Shown here piece after piece: positions 28,364 through 37,996 of a stretch of DNA of 39,135 bases. Every line of letters starts with the position of its first letter. Positions within the stretch are counted from its first letter, which is position 1. Under the pieces are notes generated by a model. It worked only from the letters and a program-made list of their open reading frames with translations, was not told where the DNA came from and searched no databases. This DNA comes from a virus. The stretch lies in the IMG/VR virus record IMGVR_UViG_3300044971_003486, positions 1-39,135 of that record; one strand, given 5' to 3'. Made by a program: the position numbers and the translations under genes.

Positions 28364-28918
28364 ATGGGAATCAAGAATTTCGATCAATTTATAACAGAGG
28401 ATAGAAGATACTATAGCTCAGATCGTGGATATGGACCTTTAAAGGGAAAACTTTCCGTTTTCAAAGACAGAGAAAGATCTAGCAATATTGGAAACTGGTT
28501 AGAGGATATAAAGGGAAGGGTTAAGAGCGATATGGATCTTAGAAAGGATAGACCAGGAAAAACTAAAAATCTAGGGGATCCTTTGAGAGTTTTAGGTTCA
28601 ATATCTGGTTTTCTTCTTAATTTAGGAGCTGGAGTTAGTGATGCTCTTTTCGGTGACACTAAAAAAGGGGAAGGCTATAAAAAGAGAAGCAAAGAGGATT
28701 TAGACAGATGGGAAAGAAAAACATTTAGTGGAGATCAAAAAAAAGTTACAGATAAGGATGCTGCTAGTTTTTACATGAATGGTGTGGAAAGAGGCAAGAA
28801 AATTTTCGGTAAAGACTTCGATCCAGACAAGCCAAAGACCGAGGAAGAGAAAAGATATGCTGAGGATCTATACGATGCAACATCGAGATATTACGGTAGA
28901 ATAAATCAAAAGAGATAA
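28364..28918 (+). CDS. Putative encapsidated protein with capsid-targeting-like N-terminus, 184 aa
   Basis: The N-terminus MGIKNFDQFITE is strikingly like the capsid-targeting peptide of T4 internal proteins (MKTYQEF plus I-A/T-E), and I-T-E at residues 10-12 fits the I/L-X-E cleavage rule of the T4 prohead protease. The rest is basic and charged, with a short hydrophobic stretch (LGSISGFLLNLGAGVSDALF) at about 76-95. Basic character fits a DNA-associated internal head protein. No enzymatic motif. The stop overlaps the next ATG (TAATG), so it is coupled to the nucleotidyltransferase-like gene. Encapsidation is inference from the peptide. Confidence 0.55.
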   Translation: MGIKNFDQFITEDRRYYSSDRGYGPLKGKLSVFKDRERSSNIGNWLEDIKGRVKSDMDLRKDRPGKTKNLGDPLRVLGSISGFLLNLGAGVSDALFGDTKKGEGYKKRSKEDLDRWERKTFSGDQKKVTDKDAASFYMNGVERGKKIFGKDFDPDKPKTEEEKRYAEDLYDATSRYYGRINQKR

Positions 28919-29844
28919 TGAGATTAAAAAATTTCGTTGAGTTTAAGAATGTATCTGAAGGCGGGAAGGCTATTAAAAGCGCTAGACCAATCAGGCAGGA
29001 CGAAGCTATGAAAACTATAGAAAATATAAAGGAGGTTTTATTACCTCTTTTAGATCTTGATTCCTATAAAGAGGGAAAGGATTATATTTTTATAGGATCG
29101 ACGGGGAAAAAGAAAAATCCAGAGGACACGTCCGGTGATATAGATCTTGGATTTAATGGAAATTATTTTGCTACCAAGCATGGCATATCATTTAAAGGGT
29201 GCTCAAAGACTCTTATGGATATGCTAAGTCCCGAACTACCTAAAGTTCTTGGATTTGAGCCCGAAATGAATAATCTATCTGGACTGAATATACTTAGTGT
29301 AGCTTGGCCTATAGCTGGCGATGCAAATAACGGGTTTGTTCAATTAGATCTTATGCCTCTTCAAAATATGGAATGGGCGAAGTTTATCTATTATTCCCCT
29401 GATTATAGAACGGACGAAAGCCAGTGGAAATCTGCTCATAGGAATTGGCTTTTGAGTGCAGCTCTTGTTGCAAGGAGGGAGATATTGGCTAATGATGAGC
29501 AAGGTGAGGTTTTAGATTACAGAACACCTGCTTTGATCCTGCCTAGTGGTTTATACCTTCAAACTAAAAGCTTTAGAGGTAAATTAAAGCCGAGATTAAA
29601 AAATGCACAGAAGATTCAGGGAACGGAGGAATTCATAACAGACGATCCTCAGGAATTTATAAATTATGCTCTTGGACCAGGGTACAGTGAGAATGACGTC
29701 AAAACGTTCGAAAAAGTTTTATCTATAATGACTTCTCCGAATTTCAAATATAAAGAATTTCTCCCCCAGATAAAGGAGAAGTTTATACAATTACTAAATA
29801 GAACAGATTTACCAGTTCCACCTGAGACAGAAAAATTAGGTTGA
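28918..29844 (+). CDS. Nucleotidyltransferase-fold protein (Pol-beta superfamily)
   Basis: The 308-aa protein carries the NTase signature: a Gly-Ser pair (IGSTGKKK, Gly60-Ser61), then SGDIDLGF with Asp74 and Asp76, and a third acidic residue in VQLDLMPL (Asp144). These three acids bind metal in enzymes that transfer NMP groups to RNA, protein or antibiotics. The substrate cannot be read. The start MRLKNFVEFKNV resembles the targeting-like peptide of the preceding protein. It is followed after 40 bases by the ligase-NMNAT fusion, which suggests a shared nucleotide-transfer pathway. Catalysis is likely from the intact triad, but a non-enzymatic copy cannot be excluded. Confidence 0.68.
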   Translation: MRLKNFVEFKNVSEGGKAIKSARPIRQDEAMKTIENIKEVLLPLLDLDSYKEGKDYIFIGSTGKKKNPEDTSGDIDLGFNGNYFATKHGISFKGCSKTLMDMLSPELPKVLGFEPEMNNLSGLNILSVAWPIAGDANNGFVQLDLMPLQNMEWAKFIYYSPDYRTDESQWKSAHRNWLLSAALVARREILANDEQGEVLDYRTPALILPSGLYLQTKSFRGKLKPRLKNAQKIQGTEEFITDDPQEFINYALGPGYSENDVKTFEKVLSIMTSPNFKYKEFLPQIKEKFIQLLNRTDLPVPPETEKLG

Positions 29845-29884: not shown

Positions 29885-31825
29885 ATGTCGAGTATTTCCC
29901 ATCTACAGGATCTTTACCACAAAAAAGGGAACGAGTTTATCAACAATCTCTTTAGCTCCTTCGTGACAGTGAACGAAAAGATGGACGGTTCTGCGTTCAC
30001 ATTTGAACGCGATATCGATAATGGTAAGTTTAAGTTTTATAAAAGGGATCAAAGAAATCCCATCACGATGGTTGACAGAACCATTATGAAGTACTACGAG
30101 AAACCCATACAGTACATAGAGTCACTTCCGCCCCATATAATACAATTGATACCAAGGGGATGGAGATTTGGATTGGAATATTTCTCTTCACCGCAGCCAC
30201 TTGAGATTGCTTACGATAGAATGCCGAATAATAATCTCATTCTTTCATACGTCCATAAATTGGATAACGGTAGAGCAAAGTCAACTATACAGAGTAAAGA
30301 GGATCTAGATAAATGGGCTGATTTACTGGGAGTGGAAAAACCTCCTATTATTTTTCAGGGAAAATTAACAGATGGTCAAAAAAGAAGTATTCTTGAGTTT
30401 ATAAACACCCCATTCTCTGATCTTATAGAGGAATTTAGAACAAAGAGCTTTGTAGCTTACATAGTTGGTGTTTTGAACCCTAAATTGGAAAAGACAGCAT
30501 TGAATAATGATCTAGAAAAGGCAATCGAAGGTATAGTATTTAGATTTGGTTCTGATGAGGACGGTGAAGAACCGGTTTTAGCAAAAATGGTAGATCCGCT
30601 TTTCACCGAGTTGGCAAAGAGTAAATACGTTCAGAAGAAAGAAACAAAGCCTAGCGATTTCCTAGTTATAACTGTTCTAGATGTTATGAACTTCATACTA
30701 GAAAAGGGGGTTGGTAGTTTTGATTTTAAAGGGAAGACCGAAGACGAAAGATATCTTTCCTTCATCTCCGATGTGTTTGTTAAGTTCTTAGATGAGTATA
30801 AGGAGAAGTACAGCGAAACTGATTTCGAGGAACCTGAATATTTAAAGAAGGACGAGTTTAGAGTCAATAAGAAAATGGTTCCAAATAGAGCTGCTCTTGC
30901 CTATATAGAAGAAGATGATGCTTTCGAATCCCTATATAAATTGATTGTTAACCAGTTTAGAAAAATAAAAAAGAGAGCTGGTGGAATAATAAACCAGGAT
31001 TTTATAGATCAGTTCAATTCAGTCGTGAAGGAGATAGAAGAAGCTATTTCCGAAAAGGAGACTAAGAAAATAAACGAATCTGAGATACCTTCTTTTAATG
31101 ATTTTAAATCTAAATTTAGAAAGAAAGTGGAGTATGTCACCGAGGAATCAGATAACGAGTCTGAAGAACCCCAACCATACGGCGAAACTTTCTCGCAATT
31201 CATATCAGATCTTGAGCATATAGACACAAAGGAAGTTAAAAATGTAGCTCCGCTAGAAGAGGATTCTAATAAAGATGAATTAAAGCCAATTAATATTATC
31301 GTTGGCAGATTCCAACCTTTCCATAAAGGTCACTTAGCAATGGCGAAAGAGCTAAAAGAGGAAAATGATTTGCCATCTATAGCTATTGTAGTCTACCCTG
31401 GCCACAATAAATCTGGCAAATCCCCATTCGACGAGAATGTTATAAAGACTTACATGGAGTCTGTTGTTAGGGAATACCCGGATTTGCTGAGTGGATTTCT
31501 AATTGTCAATAAAGGTCTTTTAGGTATTATAGCTGGGGAGGTTAGAAATATAGGCTATAGAATAGAGTTAATAGGAGCGGGTGAAGATAGAGTTGATGAC
31601 TATAACAAGCAAGTAGATTACCTGGTTAAAGCGGGCAAGGAATTTCCAACCACTACAAAGATTTTTAAAACTAAAAGAATAGCTAGCTCAAGTGAGGTAA
31701 GAGATAAACTCAAGAATGAGGATTTCACAGCATTTAAGAAGTTAGTACCACCTTGCGTCGCTTCATTATACGCAACCCTTGTTTCTGGGGTACATAACGG
31801 ATTAAAACAAAGTTCTAAAAAGTAA
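29885..31825 (+). CDS. Fusion: ATP-dependent polynucleotide ligase plus NMN-adenylyltransferase-like domain
   Basis: The 646-aa protein has two nucleotidyl-transfer domains. N-terminal half, ligase motifs: motif I EKMDGSAF with Lys32 as the likely AMP-accepting lysine; RFGLEYF near 95 as motif III; EGIVFRFG (Glu215) as motif IV; LAKMVDP (Lys234) as motif V. This order fits RNA ligases of the Rnl2 type better than DNA ligases. C-terminal half: IIVGRFQPFHKGHLAMAKEL at about 471-490 is the HxGH motif of NMNAT/NadM/NadR-type adenylyltransferases, and IASSSEVRDKL near 599 is the matching ISSSxxR motif. The linker (395-465) is acidic and holds two targeting-like motifs (PSFNDFKSKF, ETFSQFISDLE). 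A cytidylyltransferase activity is an alternative for the second domain. Confidence 0.75.
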   Translation: MSSISHLQDLYHKKGNEFINNLFSSFVTVNEKMDGSAFTFERDIDNGKFKFYKRDQRNPITMVDRTIMKYYEKPIQYIESLPPHIIQLIPRGWRFGLEYFSSPQPLEIAYDRMPNNNLILSYVHKLDNGRAKSTIQSKEDLDKWADLLGVEKPPIIFQGKLTDGQKRSILEFINTPFSDLIEEFRTKSFVAYIVGVLNPKLEKTALNNDLEKAIEGIVFRFGSDEDGEEPVLAKMVDPLFTELAKSKYVQKKETKPSDFLVITVLDVMNFILEKGVGSFDFKGKTEDERYLSFISDVFVKFLDEYKEKYSETDFEEPEYLKKDEFRVNKKMVPNRAALAYIEEDDAFESLYKLIVNQFRKIKKRAGGIINQDFIDQFNSVVKEIEEAISEKETKKINESEIPSFNDFKSKFRKKVEYVTEESDNESEEPQPYGETFSQFISDLEHIDTKEVKNVAPLEEDSNKDELKPINIIVGRFQPFHKGHLAMAKELKEENDLPSIAIVVYPGHNKSGKSPFDENVIKTYMESVVREYPDLLSGFLIVNKGLLGIIAGEVRNIGYRIELIGAGEDRVDDYNKQVDYLVKAGKEFPTTTKIFKTKRIASSSEVRDKLKNEDFTAFKKLVPPCVASLYATLVSGVHNGLKQSSKK

Positions 31826-31829
31826 CTGA

Positions 31830-32915
31830 ATGCAGGTTTCAAAAGGAAAACCTAAAAAATCAGAAACGCCGGAGGATATAGTTGCTTTAGAAATAGAGCA
31901 ATGTAAATCTATTCTTGGTTCCATGTCCGATAGATTGGAGAAATTTGATTTATCCGGTGTAGACGAAGCCGGGCTCAGAAAGCTGAAAAAACTAATAAAG
32001 AATATAAAAAGCTCTTCCTCTCTTGTAGATATTATACACGATAATAATAAGAGATCTAGCCAGATTATAGAAACACTATATAAAGTATTCTTTAGCAGGT
32101 CTAACGAGGATTCGCGTATTATGTTCAGAAAGGGATACGTTGAGGATTTCTACATTAATCTAGATCCTGCTACCTTAGATACCATAGAGAAAAGATTCAT
32201 TAAAAAACAGCCAATCAAGGGGTCTATAAGTTTCTCCGATGCTGTAAAGAACGGTACAACTGATATAGGATGGATTGATAGTTTTAATGGAATCTCTAGA
32301 AAAGACCTGAAGGAGATTTATACTATAGATGCCTACTTTCCAAGCGGTAAAAGAAGAAGAGGTAAGGGTGAAACTCTTTCTTGTCTTTCTTTTGGTGGCT
32401 TTATCAACAATGAGAGGGGAGCGGATGTTTTTATAGACGGCAATCGTGTTGAAGTAAAGTCTACTATAAGCGCATCTATTACCAGCGAGGATAATCTGGT
32501 ATCCCCTAAGATTAAGCAGTTTATAGATCTGTCATATAGGATAAGTGGCAAATCAAAAAAGAAGGAGAAAACATACGGTAAGAGATCCCTGAATCTTCTC
32601 ATAGCTAAGATAAAATCTAGTCAAGTAAAGGCAAACGAGTTCTGGAAGAGATTTCACCAGATAGTTGGATTTAGGACCGACCGTGATCCGGATAAGATAG
32701 TTCCAATATTAATATGTCATCAGATAGAGCATTACTCTAAGCCAGAGAACTTTAACACGATGATAATCTATAGTGAGAATACAGGGGGATTTCCAGATGC
32801 CCTTTCCGTTCTAGTGAAGAATGAATCATTTGTAAACGATCGAAACATAGAGATACTTAACGACTTGAATATATACTTCAGGGTTTATCCCAATAAGGTA
32901 GAAATATTTTTATAA
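31830..32915 (+). CDS. PD-(D/E)XK nuclease-like protein
   Basis: The 361-aa protein has a likely metal-dependent nuclease site: GKGETLSC (Glu181), then GADVFIDGNRVEVKST with Asp199 and Glu208-X-Lys210. A strand carrying Asp followed by Glu-X-Lys is the core of the PD-(D/E)XK fold of restriction and repair nucleases. The first 160 residues are helical and charged, possibly a binding domain; the C-terminal part is alpha/beta (IVPILICHQIEHY). The gene starts four bases after the ligase-NMNAT stop. Nuclease plus ligase plus nucleotidyltransferase suggests cleavage and repair of a nucleic-acid end. DNA or RNA as substrate is unknown. No partner methylase is seen. Confidence 0.6.
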   Translation: MQVSKGKPKKSETPEDIVALEIEQCKSILGSMSDRLEKFDLSGVDEAGLRKLKKLIKNIKSSSSLVDIIHDNNKRSSQIIETLYKVFFSRSNEDSRIMFRKGYVEDFYINLDPATLDTIEKRFIKKQPIKGSISFSDAVKNGTTDIGWIDSFNGISRKDLKEIYTIDAYFPSGKRRRGKGETLSCLSFGGFINNERGADVFIDGNRVEVKSTISASITSEDNLVSPKIKQFIDLSYRISGKSKKKEKTYGKRSLNLLIAKIKSSQVKANEFWKRFHQIVGFRTDRDPDKIVPILICHQIEHYSKPENFNTMIIYSENTGGFPDALSVLVKNESFVNDRNIEILNDLNIYFRVYPNKVEIFL

Positions 32916-32916
32916 A

Positions 32917-33459
32917 ATGGCTTCAATTAAAAAATTTAATGAATTCTTAGAATCTGTTTTCGAGTCCGATGGATTTGGAACAAAACCCTTTCTTTTAAGG
33001 AAAGAAAAGGACATCTTTAACTATCTCTTCTACATAGACACAGGAGAGGAAGGAAAACAAGATGCCTTTAGACTTATGATTGGTAAATACTCAAGCCATC
33101 AGGTTATAGATCAGCCTAAGAACTCATATTGCGTGCTTAGCGTTAATAAGCTATCATCCGAACAACTAGAGGATATATCGGTAACCAAAGCTGATTTGCC
33201 ACCTACGACATCCTCAGAGTTTAAAATGTCGGAAAGCGAGGTATCTAGACTATTCGAAACCATTTCTAAATGTATTTTGGATTATCTGGAGTATAATGCT
33301 AAAGTATCTAAGATTTACGACGAGATACAGGATAATCTAGTTTTCTCCGGTGAAGGCACCTATATGGAATTTATGAAATCTATAATTATTTCATATTTAG
33401 GCGAAGATTGGAGTGTACAGGAGGGAGTTGATAAAAATTCAATTTTAATCTCCAGATAA
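32917..33459 (+). CDS. Hypothetical protein with targeting-like N-terminus, 180 aa
   Basis: Not recognised. The N-terminus MASIKKFNEFLESVFES fits the (I/L)KxFxxF(I/L)xE pattern shared by several nearby proteins. A beta-rich region follows (FNYLFYIDTG, FRLMIGKYSSHQV, SYCVLSV), then a helical C-terminal half (VSRLFETISKCILDYLEY). The gene begins one base after the nuclease-like stop, so it is the last gene of the 28364-33459 run. A partner or inhibitor of the nuclease, or an encapsidated protein, are possible roles; nothing in the sequence decides. Confidence 0.6.
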   Translation: MASIKKFNEFLESVFESDGFGTKPFLLRKEKDIFNYLFYIDTGEEGKQDAFRLMIGKYSSHQVIDQPKNSYCVLSVNKLSSEQLEDISVTKADLPPTTSSEFKMSESEVSRLFETISKCILDYLEYNAKVSKIYDEIQDNLVFSGEGTYMEFMKSIIISYLGEDWSVQEGVDKNSILISR

Positions 33460-34280: not shown

Positions 34281-34691
34281 ATGCCTTCACAAAGTTCAGC
34301 ACAACAGAGGCTTTTCGGACAAGCCTATGGTATCAAGACAGGAGAGCTTAAGCCATCAGATCTAAATCCAAAGTACAAATCTGAAATTCTAGCACTATCT
34401 AAAAAGATGACCAAGAAACAGTTGGACGATTTCGCATCTACCAAGACCAAGAAGCTTCCTCATTATGTAAAAGAGGACGAAGTTAACGAGAAAGGTGGAT
34501 TAGCAGTTGGTGGTAAAACAACTGTTGTTCCTCTTGTTAATGTTACAGGTGCGGAAGAATATTCGCCAAGTGGTCCTGGTCCAATAGTTCCTTTTCTAAA
34601 TACAGACGTTCAGAAGAAAAAGAAAGGTAAAAAGAATTTACAGAATCTAAAAGATTATAGAGACTGGGTAAATGAAAATAAGGATCTATAA
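34281..34691 (+). CDS. DUF3008-like protein with C-terminal targeting-like motif, 136 aa
   Basis: Residues 1-63 match the DUF3008 pattern found in phages and bacteria: MPSQSSAQQRLFGQAYGIKT, then LSKKMTKKQLDDFASTKTKK and LPHYV. The function of the family is unknown. The rest is extra: a Gly/Val/Pro-rich middle and a Lys-rich end closing with NLKDYRDWVNENKDL, which fits the recurring (I/L)KxFxxF(I/L/V)xE motif, here at the C-terminus. It is preceded by a strong promoter-like element. A role as a DNA-associated head protein is possible. Confidence 0.65.
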   Translation: MPSQSSAQQRLFGQAYGIKTGELKPSDLNPKYKSEILALSKKMTKKQLDDFASTKTKKLPHYVKEDEVNEKGGLAVGGKTTVVPLVNVTGAEEYSPSGPGPIVPFLNTDVQKKKKGKKNLQNLKDYRDWVNENKDL

Positions 34692-36112: not shown

Positions 36113-37996
36113 ATGGGAAAAGTAATTGGAATTGACTTGGGCACAACAAACTCTTGTGTTTCGGTCATAGAAGCAGATCAGCCAGTTGTTATTGTTAATG
36201 CAGAGGGAAAGAGAACAACTCCAAGCGTTATCGGATTCAACGATGGTGAAATTAAAATCGGGGATCCAGCCAGAAGACAAGCTGTGACAAACCCTACGAA
36301 CACATTGTACTCTGTTAAGAGATTCATTGGATCTAACTTTGACGATGTGAAGAAAGAGGCTAAGAAAATGCCTTATGTGGTTAAAAAGGGCAGCGATAAT
36401 AGAGTTATCGTGGAAGCTAATGGAAGAGATTATATCCCACAGGAGATCGCAGCTATGGTTCTTCAGAATCTTAAAAGAGTTGCAGAGGATTACCTCGGAA
36501 GCGAAGTAACAGAAGCGGTTATCACTGTGCCTGCTTATTTTAATGACGCACAGAGGCAAGCAACAAAAGAGGCAGGTGAGATTGCTGGTCTTAATGTATT
36601 GAGAATTATCAACGAGCCAACGGCTGCAGCACTAGCTTATGGACTTGATAAAATGGACAAAGATCAAAAGGTAGCGGTATATGACCTCGGCGGTGGTACA
36701 TTTGACGTATCCATCTTGGAAATAGGATCTGGCGTATTTGAAGTTCTTTCAACTAACGGTGACACACATCTTGGTGGTGACAACTTCGATGAGAAGATCA
36801 TTGATTGGATTGTGGAAGAGTTCAAGTCGCAAACTGGAATAGATGCCTCTAAGGACCCAATGGCTTATCAACGTATTAGAGAAGCTGCTGAGAAGGCTAA
36901 AATCGAATTATCAAATTCATCAGAAACAGAAATTAACCTACCTTATCTAAGCGCTCTTTCAGATGGGCCTAAGCACTTTGTAGGTAAACTTTCGAGAGCT
37001 AAATTTGAGCAAATGATTGATGATTTAATTCAGAAGACACTTGCTCCCTGTAGAAAAGCTATCAAAGATTCCAAACTTAAAGTTTCTGAAATAGATGAGA
37101 TTCTATTGGTTGGTGGATCAACAAGAATTCCTAAGGTTCAAGAGGAAGTAGAAAAGCTATTTGGTAAAAAGCCAAATAAGAGCGTAAATCCCGATGAGGT
37201 TGTTGCTATTGGAGCGGCAGTTCAGGGAGCAGTTTTAAAAGGAGACATCACGGACGTTCTTTTGCTTGATGTTACACCGCTTTCTTTAGGTATTGAAACA
37301 ATGGGAGGTGTATTCACCAAATTGATTGAAGCTAACTCAACTATCCCTATTAGAAAAAGCGAGTCATTCTCTACTGCCGTTGATAACCAGGCAAATGTGG
37401 AAATCCATGTTTTACAGGGTGAAAGACCAATGGCTTCAGATAACAAGACTCTAGGAAGATTCATGCTAACTGATGTTCCGCCTGCTCCAAGAGGGATTCC
37501 TCAGATTGAAGTTACCTTTGATATTGATGCTAACGGTATCATTAGCGTTTCTGCTAAGGATAAAGGAACAGGTAAAGAGCAGAACATCAAGATTGAATCT
37601 GGTAACAAGCTGTCAGATGATGAAATCAAGAAGATGAAGGATGACGCTTTATCTAATGAGAAAGCAGACAAGGAAAGACTTAAGTTATCCCAGGCTAAAA
37701 ATGAGTTGGATGGCTTAATTTTCCAAGCTGAAAAAATGATTAAAGATTTTGAAGAAAAGACATCTGAGGAGGAAAGAGCTAAGATTAATTCTATGATCGA
37801 GTCCGCTAAGGAGACCGTAAAAGGTGAGGATGCTGAAAAGATGGAATCTAGCACCAAGGATCTAGTCGAGGCACTCCAAGAAATCTCCACTAAAGTTTAT
37901 GCTCAAGAGCAAGCTAACTCCGGCGAAGCTGGTGAAACAACTAGCTCAACAAGCACAGAAGCTGAAGAGGTTGAATTTGAGGAGGTTAAGGGATAA
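36113..37996 (+). CDS. dnaK: Hsp70 chaperone DnaK
   Basis: A full-length 627-aa Hsp70. Nucleotide-binding domain: [13 protein letters not shown] at 5-17, [24 protein letters not shown] and [12 protein letters not shown]. Linker: [15 protein letters not shown] near 382-396. The substrate-binding domain and helical lid follow, and the C-terminus [10 protein letters not shown] matches Bacteroidota DnaK tails. It folds proteins in the cytoplasm, normally with DnaJ and GrpE, which are not seen here. All key residues look intact, so it should be active. Phages seldom carry DnaK; it was probably acquired from a Bacteroidota host and may help fold the very large virion proteins. A terminator follows 16 bases after the stop. 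Confidence 0.97.

Follow-up and report, generated by a model that had tools for sequence, protein, structure and literature searches.

An Rnl2-like ligase joined to an NMNAT-like nucleotidyltransferase in large T4-like phages, a candidate repair and NAD+-resupply enzyme

The viral DNA stretch analysed here (39,135 nucleotides, hereafter the window) encodes one protein in which an Rnl2-like ligase is joined to an NMNAT-like nucleotidyltransferase of the HIGH superfamily (HIGH-NTase). RNA ligases and NAD+-salvage enzymes are known in phages separately; here both are carried on one polypeptide. We tentatively favour, at a little short of an even chance, a bifunctional repair and NAD+-resupply enzyme of T4-like large phages, set in a counter-defence module together with a Pol-beta-type nucleotidyltransferase (hereafter the NTase). 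The features of the fusion, with conservation counted over 58 aligned full-length fusions, are as follows.

29885..31825, plus strand: fusion protein, Rnl2-like ligase and NMNAT-like (HIGH superfamily) nucleotidyltransferase (Pfam, AlphaFold2, Foldseek, ∼60 homologous fusions)
29885..30604, plus strand: ligase nucleotidyltransferase domain, approximately residues 1-240 (Pfam RNA_ligase at 27-224; Foldseek T4 Rnl2)
29975..29992, plus strand: ligase motif I EKMDGS, residues 31-36 (K32 kept in 54 of 58)
29978-29980, plus strand: codon of the predicted nucleophile Lys32, in motif I
30176..30178, plus strand: ligase motif III glutamate E98 (54 of 58)
30527..30529, plus strand: ligase motif IV glutamate E215, in EGIVFRF (56 of 58)
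30584..30586, plus strand: ligase motif V lysine K234, in LAKMVDP (57 of 58, arginine in the remaining one)
30605..31054, plus strand: helical C-terminal region of the ligase half, approximately residues 241-390 (model, homologues)
31055..31276, plus strand: disordered linker, residues 391-464 (pLDDT below 50 over most of it)
31280..31804, plus strand: NMNAT-like domain, residues 466-640 (VIA Z 15-16, rmsd 2.4-2.8 to NadD/NadM)
31304..31333, plus strand: nucleotide-binding motif GRFQPFHKGH, residues 474-483 (G482 and H483 in 56 of 58; lost in loci L068 and L069)
31685..31702, plus strand: C-terminal motif SSSEVR with R606, within IASSSEVRDK at residues 599-608 (R606 in 56 of 58)

The open reading frame is intact, starts with ATG and encodes 646 amino acids; its extent and all motifs quoted in the initial annotation (EKMDGS, EGIVFRF, LAKMVDP, GRFQPFHKGH, and IASSSEVRDK) match the sequence exactly. 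In the AlphaFold2 model, built from 40 homologues (pLDDT 77), the first half has an Rnl2 ligase fold and the second an NMNAT fold, and the linker between them is disordered. Thus, the view of the gene as a single protein with ligase and NMNAT-like domains is borne out by fold, profile, and conservation. As Pfam CTP_transf_like scores above its cut-off (26.9 bits) and RNA_ligase just below, the two-domain assignment is more than chance. An internal restart yielding a separate NMNAT was considered for ATG codons and rejected, as methionine is absent between residues 331 and 486.

The fusion is also not an assembly join of two genes, which the initial annotation had raised as a way in which its proposal could fail. 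Two other IMG/VR contigs carry the same fusion at 99% and 95% identity, and ∼60 distinct fusions, mostly at 49–63% identity, are found in further IMG/VR contigs; as these come from independent assemblies, an artefact is excluded. The alignment search with the fusion returned 80 loci, the majority with the full-length fusion; the contigs bearing them reach 434 kb. A genome-contig scan with a few peptide patterns gave no cellular fusion, its one partial match (30%, in a MAG) covering residues 1-159. Two of the homologues, L141 (1122 aa) and L249 (1114 aa), have ∼480 extra C-terminal residues, preceded in L141 by a TFNDFIGEN-like motif.

For the ligase half, the top Foldseek match in PDB is full-length T4 Rnl2 (2hvr/2hvq, E 2e-7 to 3e-7), and other RNA-ligase matches include 1s68 (E 1.1e-5) and REL1 (1xdn). 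The Pfam RNA_ligase score of the window protein is 22.5 bits against a gathering cut-off of 27, while two relatives score 26.1 and 28.1 bits, the latter (L068) above the cut-off; PHROG 548, RNA ligase, matches residues 22-321 of L068. A ligase profile from six divergent members, compared with PDB sequences, returned nothing relevant. Motif I in the form E-K-x-(H/D)-G and the glutamates of motifs III and IV are present in all 54 proteins of the clade with an intact site. The motif V of T4 Rnl2 is K-x-K. In the fusion it reads K234-M-V, with valine or isoleucine at position 236 in 58 of 58; the motif LAKMVDP named earlier is present, with one lysine. Judged by its sequence, the first half is Rnl2-like rather than a canonical Rnl2. 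NAD+-dependent ligases (LigA) release NMN, and a chemical coupling could be imagined in which the ligase half takes AMP from NAD+ and the fused NMNAT recycles the released NMN to NAD+. This would account for the fusion of these two activities, but no Ia-type NAD+-binding domain is visible and the fold is that of the ATP-dependent Rnl2, and we consider such coupling highly improbable.

The second half has the GxFxPxHxGH and C-terminal S/T..R motifs on a Rossmann nucleotidyltransferase fold. Foldseek matches it to nicotinate/nicotinamide mononucleotide adenylyltransferases (NadD/NadM structures). The NMNAT equivalog TIGR01527 gives 23.8 bits where 181.2 are required, and since both this score and motif V fall short, we file the fusion as Rnl2-like plus NMNAT-like and as a member of neither family.

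The genomic context bears on the substrate of this half. A NadV-type transferase is encoded in seven of 22 related records, many of them partial (G001, G002, G004, G005, G008, G009, and G011); the closest relative, at 95% identity, is G001, and the window itself is a fragment that contains no NadV. The two NadV-type genes examined exceed the cut-off of NF006629, a model named nicotinate phosphoribosyltransferase, and one of them adjoins a ribose-phosphate pyrophosphokinase. The fusion is the sole HIGH-NTase of G001, G002, G004, and G008, so that its second half would be the one phage candidate there for the final step to NAD+. The suggested role in NAD+ resupply gains support from NadV in these seven records and from the four in which no other HIGH-NTase accompanies it. 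Alternatively, the HIGH-NTase half could activate some other phosphate ester (a sugar, lipid, or nucleotide), the fusion providing shared localisation or control only. We regard this as rather unlikely. The annotation of the cyanophage HIGH-NTases and of PHROG 395/3041 is cytidyltransferase, and NadV was not found in several relatives of 270–350 kb; however, the best solved-structure sequence matches of this half are archaeal NMNATs, and the top Z scores over residues 466-640 belong to NadD/NadM, whereas PPAT scores lower by 1–2 units.

The ligase site shows a reciprocal pattern with a second ligase-like gene, LIG2 (∼425 aa, TEK-x-DG motif). Lysine 32 is replaced in four loci, L004, L082, L139, and L141, of which L004 and L082 encode the same protein, and LIG2 lies immediately upstream in each. 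Searching with LIG2 gave 80 loci, in 72 to 74 of which it is closely followed by a fusion homologue of ∼620 aa whose NMNAT motifs are intact and whose ligase motifs are degraded. These LIG2-adjacent fusions form a sister clade larger than that of the window. Scored at K32, D34/G35, E98, E215, and K234, 54/54 fusions with no LIG2 next to them keep an intact ligase site, whereas in 57/57 beside LIG2 it is broken. LIG2 is absent from all 14 records of the window's clade searched (163–434 kb) and present in all three of the other clade. In a FastTree phylogeny, which carries a long-branch warning, one change suffices for each trait, and hence the pattern counts as one replacement event rather than many. 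In the converse case, L068 and L069 keep the ligase site and have their NMNAT motifs destroyed (GKFQPFDNLDL); the NTase gene is missing from these loci too.

LIG2 has no convincing match in Pfam or PHROG and nothing relevant among PDB sequences. Its profile and that of the window ligase align with motifs I and III in register, though weakly (P 0.011, probability 4%), and for this reason we call LIG2 putatively ligase-like by its invariant motifs I, IV, and V alone. The degraded relatives also suggest that the ligase half of the fusion might itself be a non-enzymatic scaffold or nucleic-acid-binding module, as its decayed relatives must be. Besides the 57 broken fusions of the LIG2 clade, phages of 630–735 kb have ligase-like homologues without the motif I lysine and without NMNAT, in which the helical region at about 241-390 is conserved too. 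We find this quite improbable for the window's clade, since all tested elements of the site are kept in 54 of 54 members, down to ∼49% identity, as expected of a working enzyme.

The neighbourhood of the fusion is conserved: gp32, primase, uvsY, uvsW, a leader-bearing protein of 184 aa, the NTase, the fusion, and a protein of 180 aa follow one another in this order in ∼50 of 58 loci. The nearest genes in the window are as follows.

28364..28918, plus strand: 184-aa protein whose N-terminus MGIKNFDQFITE is capsid-targeting-like (48 of 50 homologues have the F-x-x-F leader; conserved neighbour)
28918..29844, plus strand: nucleotidyltransferase of Pol-beta/PolX fold (GS..DxD..D) whose N-terminal leader ends in EGG (AlphaFold pLDDT 90.5; in 50 of 58 loci)
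31830..32915, plus strand: 361-aa protein; a stretch of it is possibly PD-(D/E)xK-like (GADVFIDGNRVEVKS; motif by eye only)
32917..33459, plus strand: 180-aa protein (MASIKKFNEFLES..) downstream of the fusion (fused in frame to it in L036 and L129)

The 361-aa gene occurs only in the three loci of this species and has no Pfam family above the cut-off; a similar-looking gene lies between the NTase and the ligase in Stenotrophomonas phage Ps15 (L010). The fusion is accompanied in 54 loci by small proteins that start MPSQSSAQQRLFGQAY (PHROG 28725), with several copies per locus; in the window they are encoded at 34281-34691 on the plus strand and around it. Further downstream (36113-37996, plus strand) is a complete phage HSP70/DnaK (Pfam E 1e-256), found in eight of 58 related loci and also falling in PHROG 22485, a family of unknown function.

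The GS, DxD, and third D of the NTase are invariant among its homologues. It has no Pfam match at E≤1, and its profile found nothing relevant among PDB sequences; hence we describe it as Pol-beta-fold and do not assign it to RlaP. Its fold matches AsfvPolX and Pol beta (Z 9.7), with DNA Pol beta/lambda at Z 9.3–9.7. These matches, together with the location among the recombination genes gp32, primase, uvsY, and uvsW, would fit a short-patch repair of nicks and gaps in phage DNA by the ligase and a Pol-beta/PolX-like NTase, perhaps entering with the genome, with the NMNAT half as cofactor supply only; moreover, an Rnl2-type fold alone fixes neither RNA nor DNA as the substrate. On the other hand, the ligase fold is nearest to RNA ligases rather than DNA ligases, the RNA nucleotidyltransferases CutA and TUT rank beside Pol beta in Foldseek, and LR756504 has a separate gene, DNA-ligase-like by motif, adjoining its ligase-like homologue. 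DNA repair thus seems to us an unlikely explanation. At the same time, at least one stronger RNA_ligase match is present elsewhere in each of the six related records tested, and so the ligase of the fusion is not the only RNA ligase of these phages.

Several proteins of the locus have leaders resembling those of virion-targeted proteins. In T4, a leader of 10–19 residues directs internal proteins to the head. Its residues 4 and 7 matter for targeting, residues 8 and 10 for cleavage; the T4 and giant-phage proteases cleave after Glu (PMC9026906, PMC5694885). An F-x-x-F...EGG leader is present in all 49 NTase homologues, and in LIG2 the EGG is found in 53 of 54 and the leader motif in 46 of 54. 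In G004, 22 of 421 ORFs show the pattern (F/Y)xx(F/Y/W)hxE within their first 20 residues, whereas among internal stretches its frequency is 0.7% (p 1.7e-12, or 2.6e-4 once a tandem array is left out). The array itself (L149-L164, ∼38.7–48.4 kb) comprises about ten paralogous proteins of 231–315 aa, nearly all of which start MKRI.NYKTFINES, a capsid-targeting-like leader. A Peptidase_S77 prohead protease match is present in four of six related records. The fusion starts MSSISHLQDLYHKKG, with no (F/Y)xxF(I/L)xE leader, and carries such F-x-x-F motifs in its linker only: SFNDF near 403-407 in 58/58 fusions and FSQFISDLE near 436-444 in 52/58. As the leaders are on the neighbours and the N-terminus of the fusion has none, delivery in the virion can reasonably be inferred for the leader-bearing neighbours, whereas for the fusion itself it is no more than possible.

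Ligase-like proteins and HIGH-NTases are paired in other phages as well. In Microcystis phage Mel-JY01, a 639-aa protein has the reverse order, HIGH-NTase and then LIG2, and LR756508 encodes a 915-aa protein that combines a ParB-like domain, a HIGH-NTase, and LIG2. In L144 (3483-6230), HIGH-NTase and LIG2 are joined to a ParB/sulfiredoxin-like domain with DGHHRW; L010 encodes a similar domain in a neighbouring gene of its own. Separate but adjoining genes are found in Xanthomonas phage X1 and Stenotrophomonas phage Ps15: one for an NTase (GST..GDID-type) and one for a protein with ligase motifs, both assigned by motif only, and one whose product is NMNAT-like. In the cyanophages Syn33, S-CAM9, and S-RIM32, DUF6267 (motifs K-W-D-G, E-G, and Y-K-L) directly precedes a 'cytitidyltransferase', and PHROG 455 covers both; the exception is P-TIM68, with no DUF6267-like gene directly beside its cytitidyltransferase. 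Relatives of DUF6267 are found in 470 phage records. Such pairing across many T4-like phages, in several arrangements, suggests a widespread undescribed repair-and-resupply module. The recurrence of the pairing, along with the decay of the ligase site only beside LIG2, lends support to the functional coupling of ligation with the HIGH-NTase proposed initially; for the accompanying idea of NAD-capped RNA, we found no evidence.

Compared with known systems, the fusion shares with the T4 Rnl2 (gp24.1) family the fold over the whole ligase half, motif I E-K-x-D-G, the glutamates of motifs III and IV, a motif V lysine, and an extra C-terminal region, and differs in having one lysine in motif V, a weak sequence score, and the fused NMNAT domain. 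With the NadM/NadR NMNATs (KVP40 NadM; archaeal 1ej2 and 1f9a) it shares GRFQPFHxGH, S-x-x-x-x-R, and the fold at Z 15-16. While the phage NMNATs described so far are fused to Nudix (NadM) or to a P-loop kinase (NadR) (PMC7824862, PMC9503650), here the NMNAT-like domain is on a ligase and NMN is its predicted acceptor. In common with NARP2-type salvage (NadV plus NMNAT), the closest relative and several others encode a NadV-type transferase, four of them with the fusion as their sole HIGH-NTase; unlike in that system, the domain with its predicted substrate is carried on a ligase, and NadV lies outside the window fragment. In jumbo phages, RNA repair by an RNA ligase paired with a Pol-beta NTase has been described (PMC7824862); like RNA ligase plus RlaP, the ligase gene here is directly beside a Pol-beta-fold NTase, but the fusion adds an NMNAT domain and the NTase matches no Pfam family. 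The cyanophage DUF6267 (PF19782, T4-GC 71) and cytitidyltransferase (T4-GC 190) also place a ligase-motif protein beside a HIGH-NTase, although the ligase-like family differs (K-W-D-G) and the genes are separate in the genomes examined. Neither DUF6267 nor a ligase–NMNAT fusion is named in the literature searched, though a 2016 RNA-repair survey (doi 10.1093/nar/gkw722) might mention such a fusion; jumbo-phage surveys, in their accessible part, describe Rnl1/Rnl2, RlaP, and NadM/NadR and name no such fusion (PMC7824862).

For the favoured enzyme of repair and resupply, we infer RNA and NMN as substrates, a role in counter-defence, and a possible link to virion delivery. The Rnl2-like half would load AMP on Lys32 and seal nicks in nucleic acid, the most likely substrate being RNA that defence nucleases of the host have cut, after the upstream Pol-beta-fold NTase had restored the lost nucleotides. 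The NMNAT-like half would most likely make NAD+ (or a related dinucleotide) and so refill the pool drained by host NADases, with NMN supplied in several relatives by the phage NadV-type transferase. Joining both halves would put two counter-measures on one polypeptide, and leader-bearing neighbours may be delivered in the virion by their T4-like capsid-targeting leaders. We favour this reading because of the two folds, the conservation of both active sites in ∼50 diverged fusions, synteny, the recurrent pairing, and the LIG2-linked decay. It is weakened by the sub-threshold RNA_ligase score, the lone motif V lysine, and the missed NMNAT equivalog; by the DNA Pol beta/X fold matches, the stronger RNA ligases elsewhere, and the presence of NadV in seven of 22 records; and by the reciprocal pattern being a single event and the fusion lacking an N-terminal leader.

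More broadly, and more doubtfully, T4-like phages from cyanophages to 400-kb phages may share an unrecognised module of ligase and HIGH-NTase, often with a Pol-beta NTase, that would be packed into the head via capsid-targeting leaders and injected with the genome, mending cut RNA and refilling NAD+ as host defence strikes; the fusion in the window would be its most compact form, with DUF6267 and LIG2 as the ligases elsewhere. The fusion is maintained across dozens of lineages of large phages, and adjacent or reverse-order fused genes echo it elsewhere. This points to the sealing of nucleic acids being functionally linked to a HIGH-type nucleotidyltransferase, a connection absent from the literature searched, and offers testable functions for DUF6267, LIG2, and the cyanophage cytitidyltransferases.
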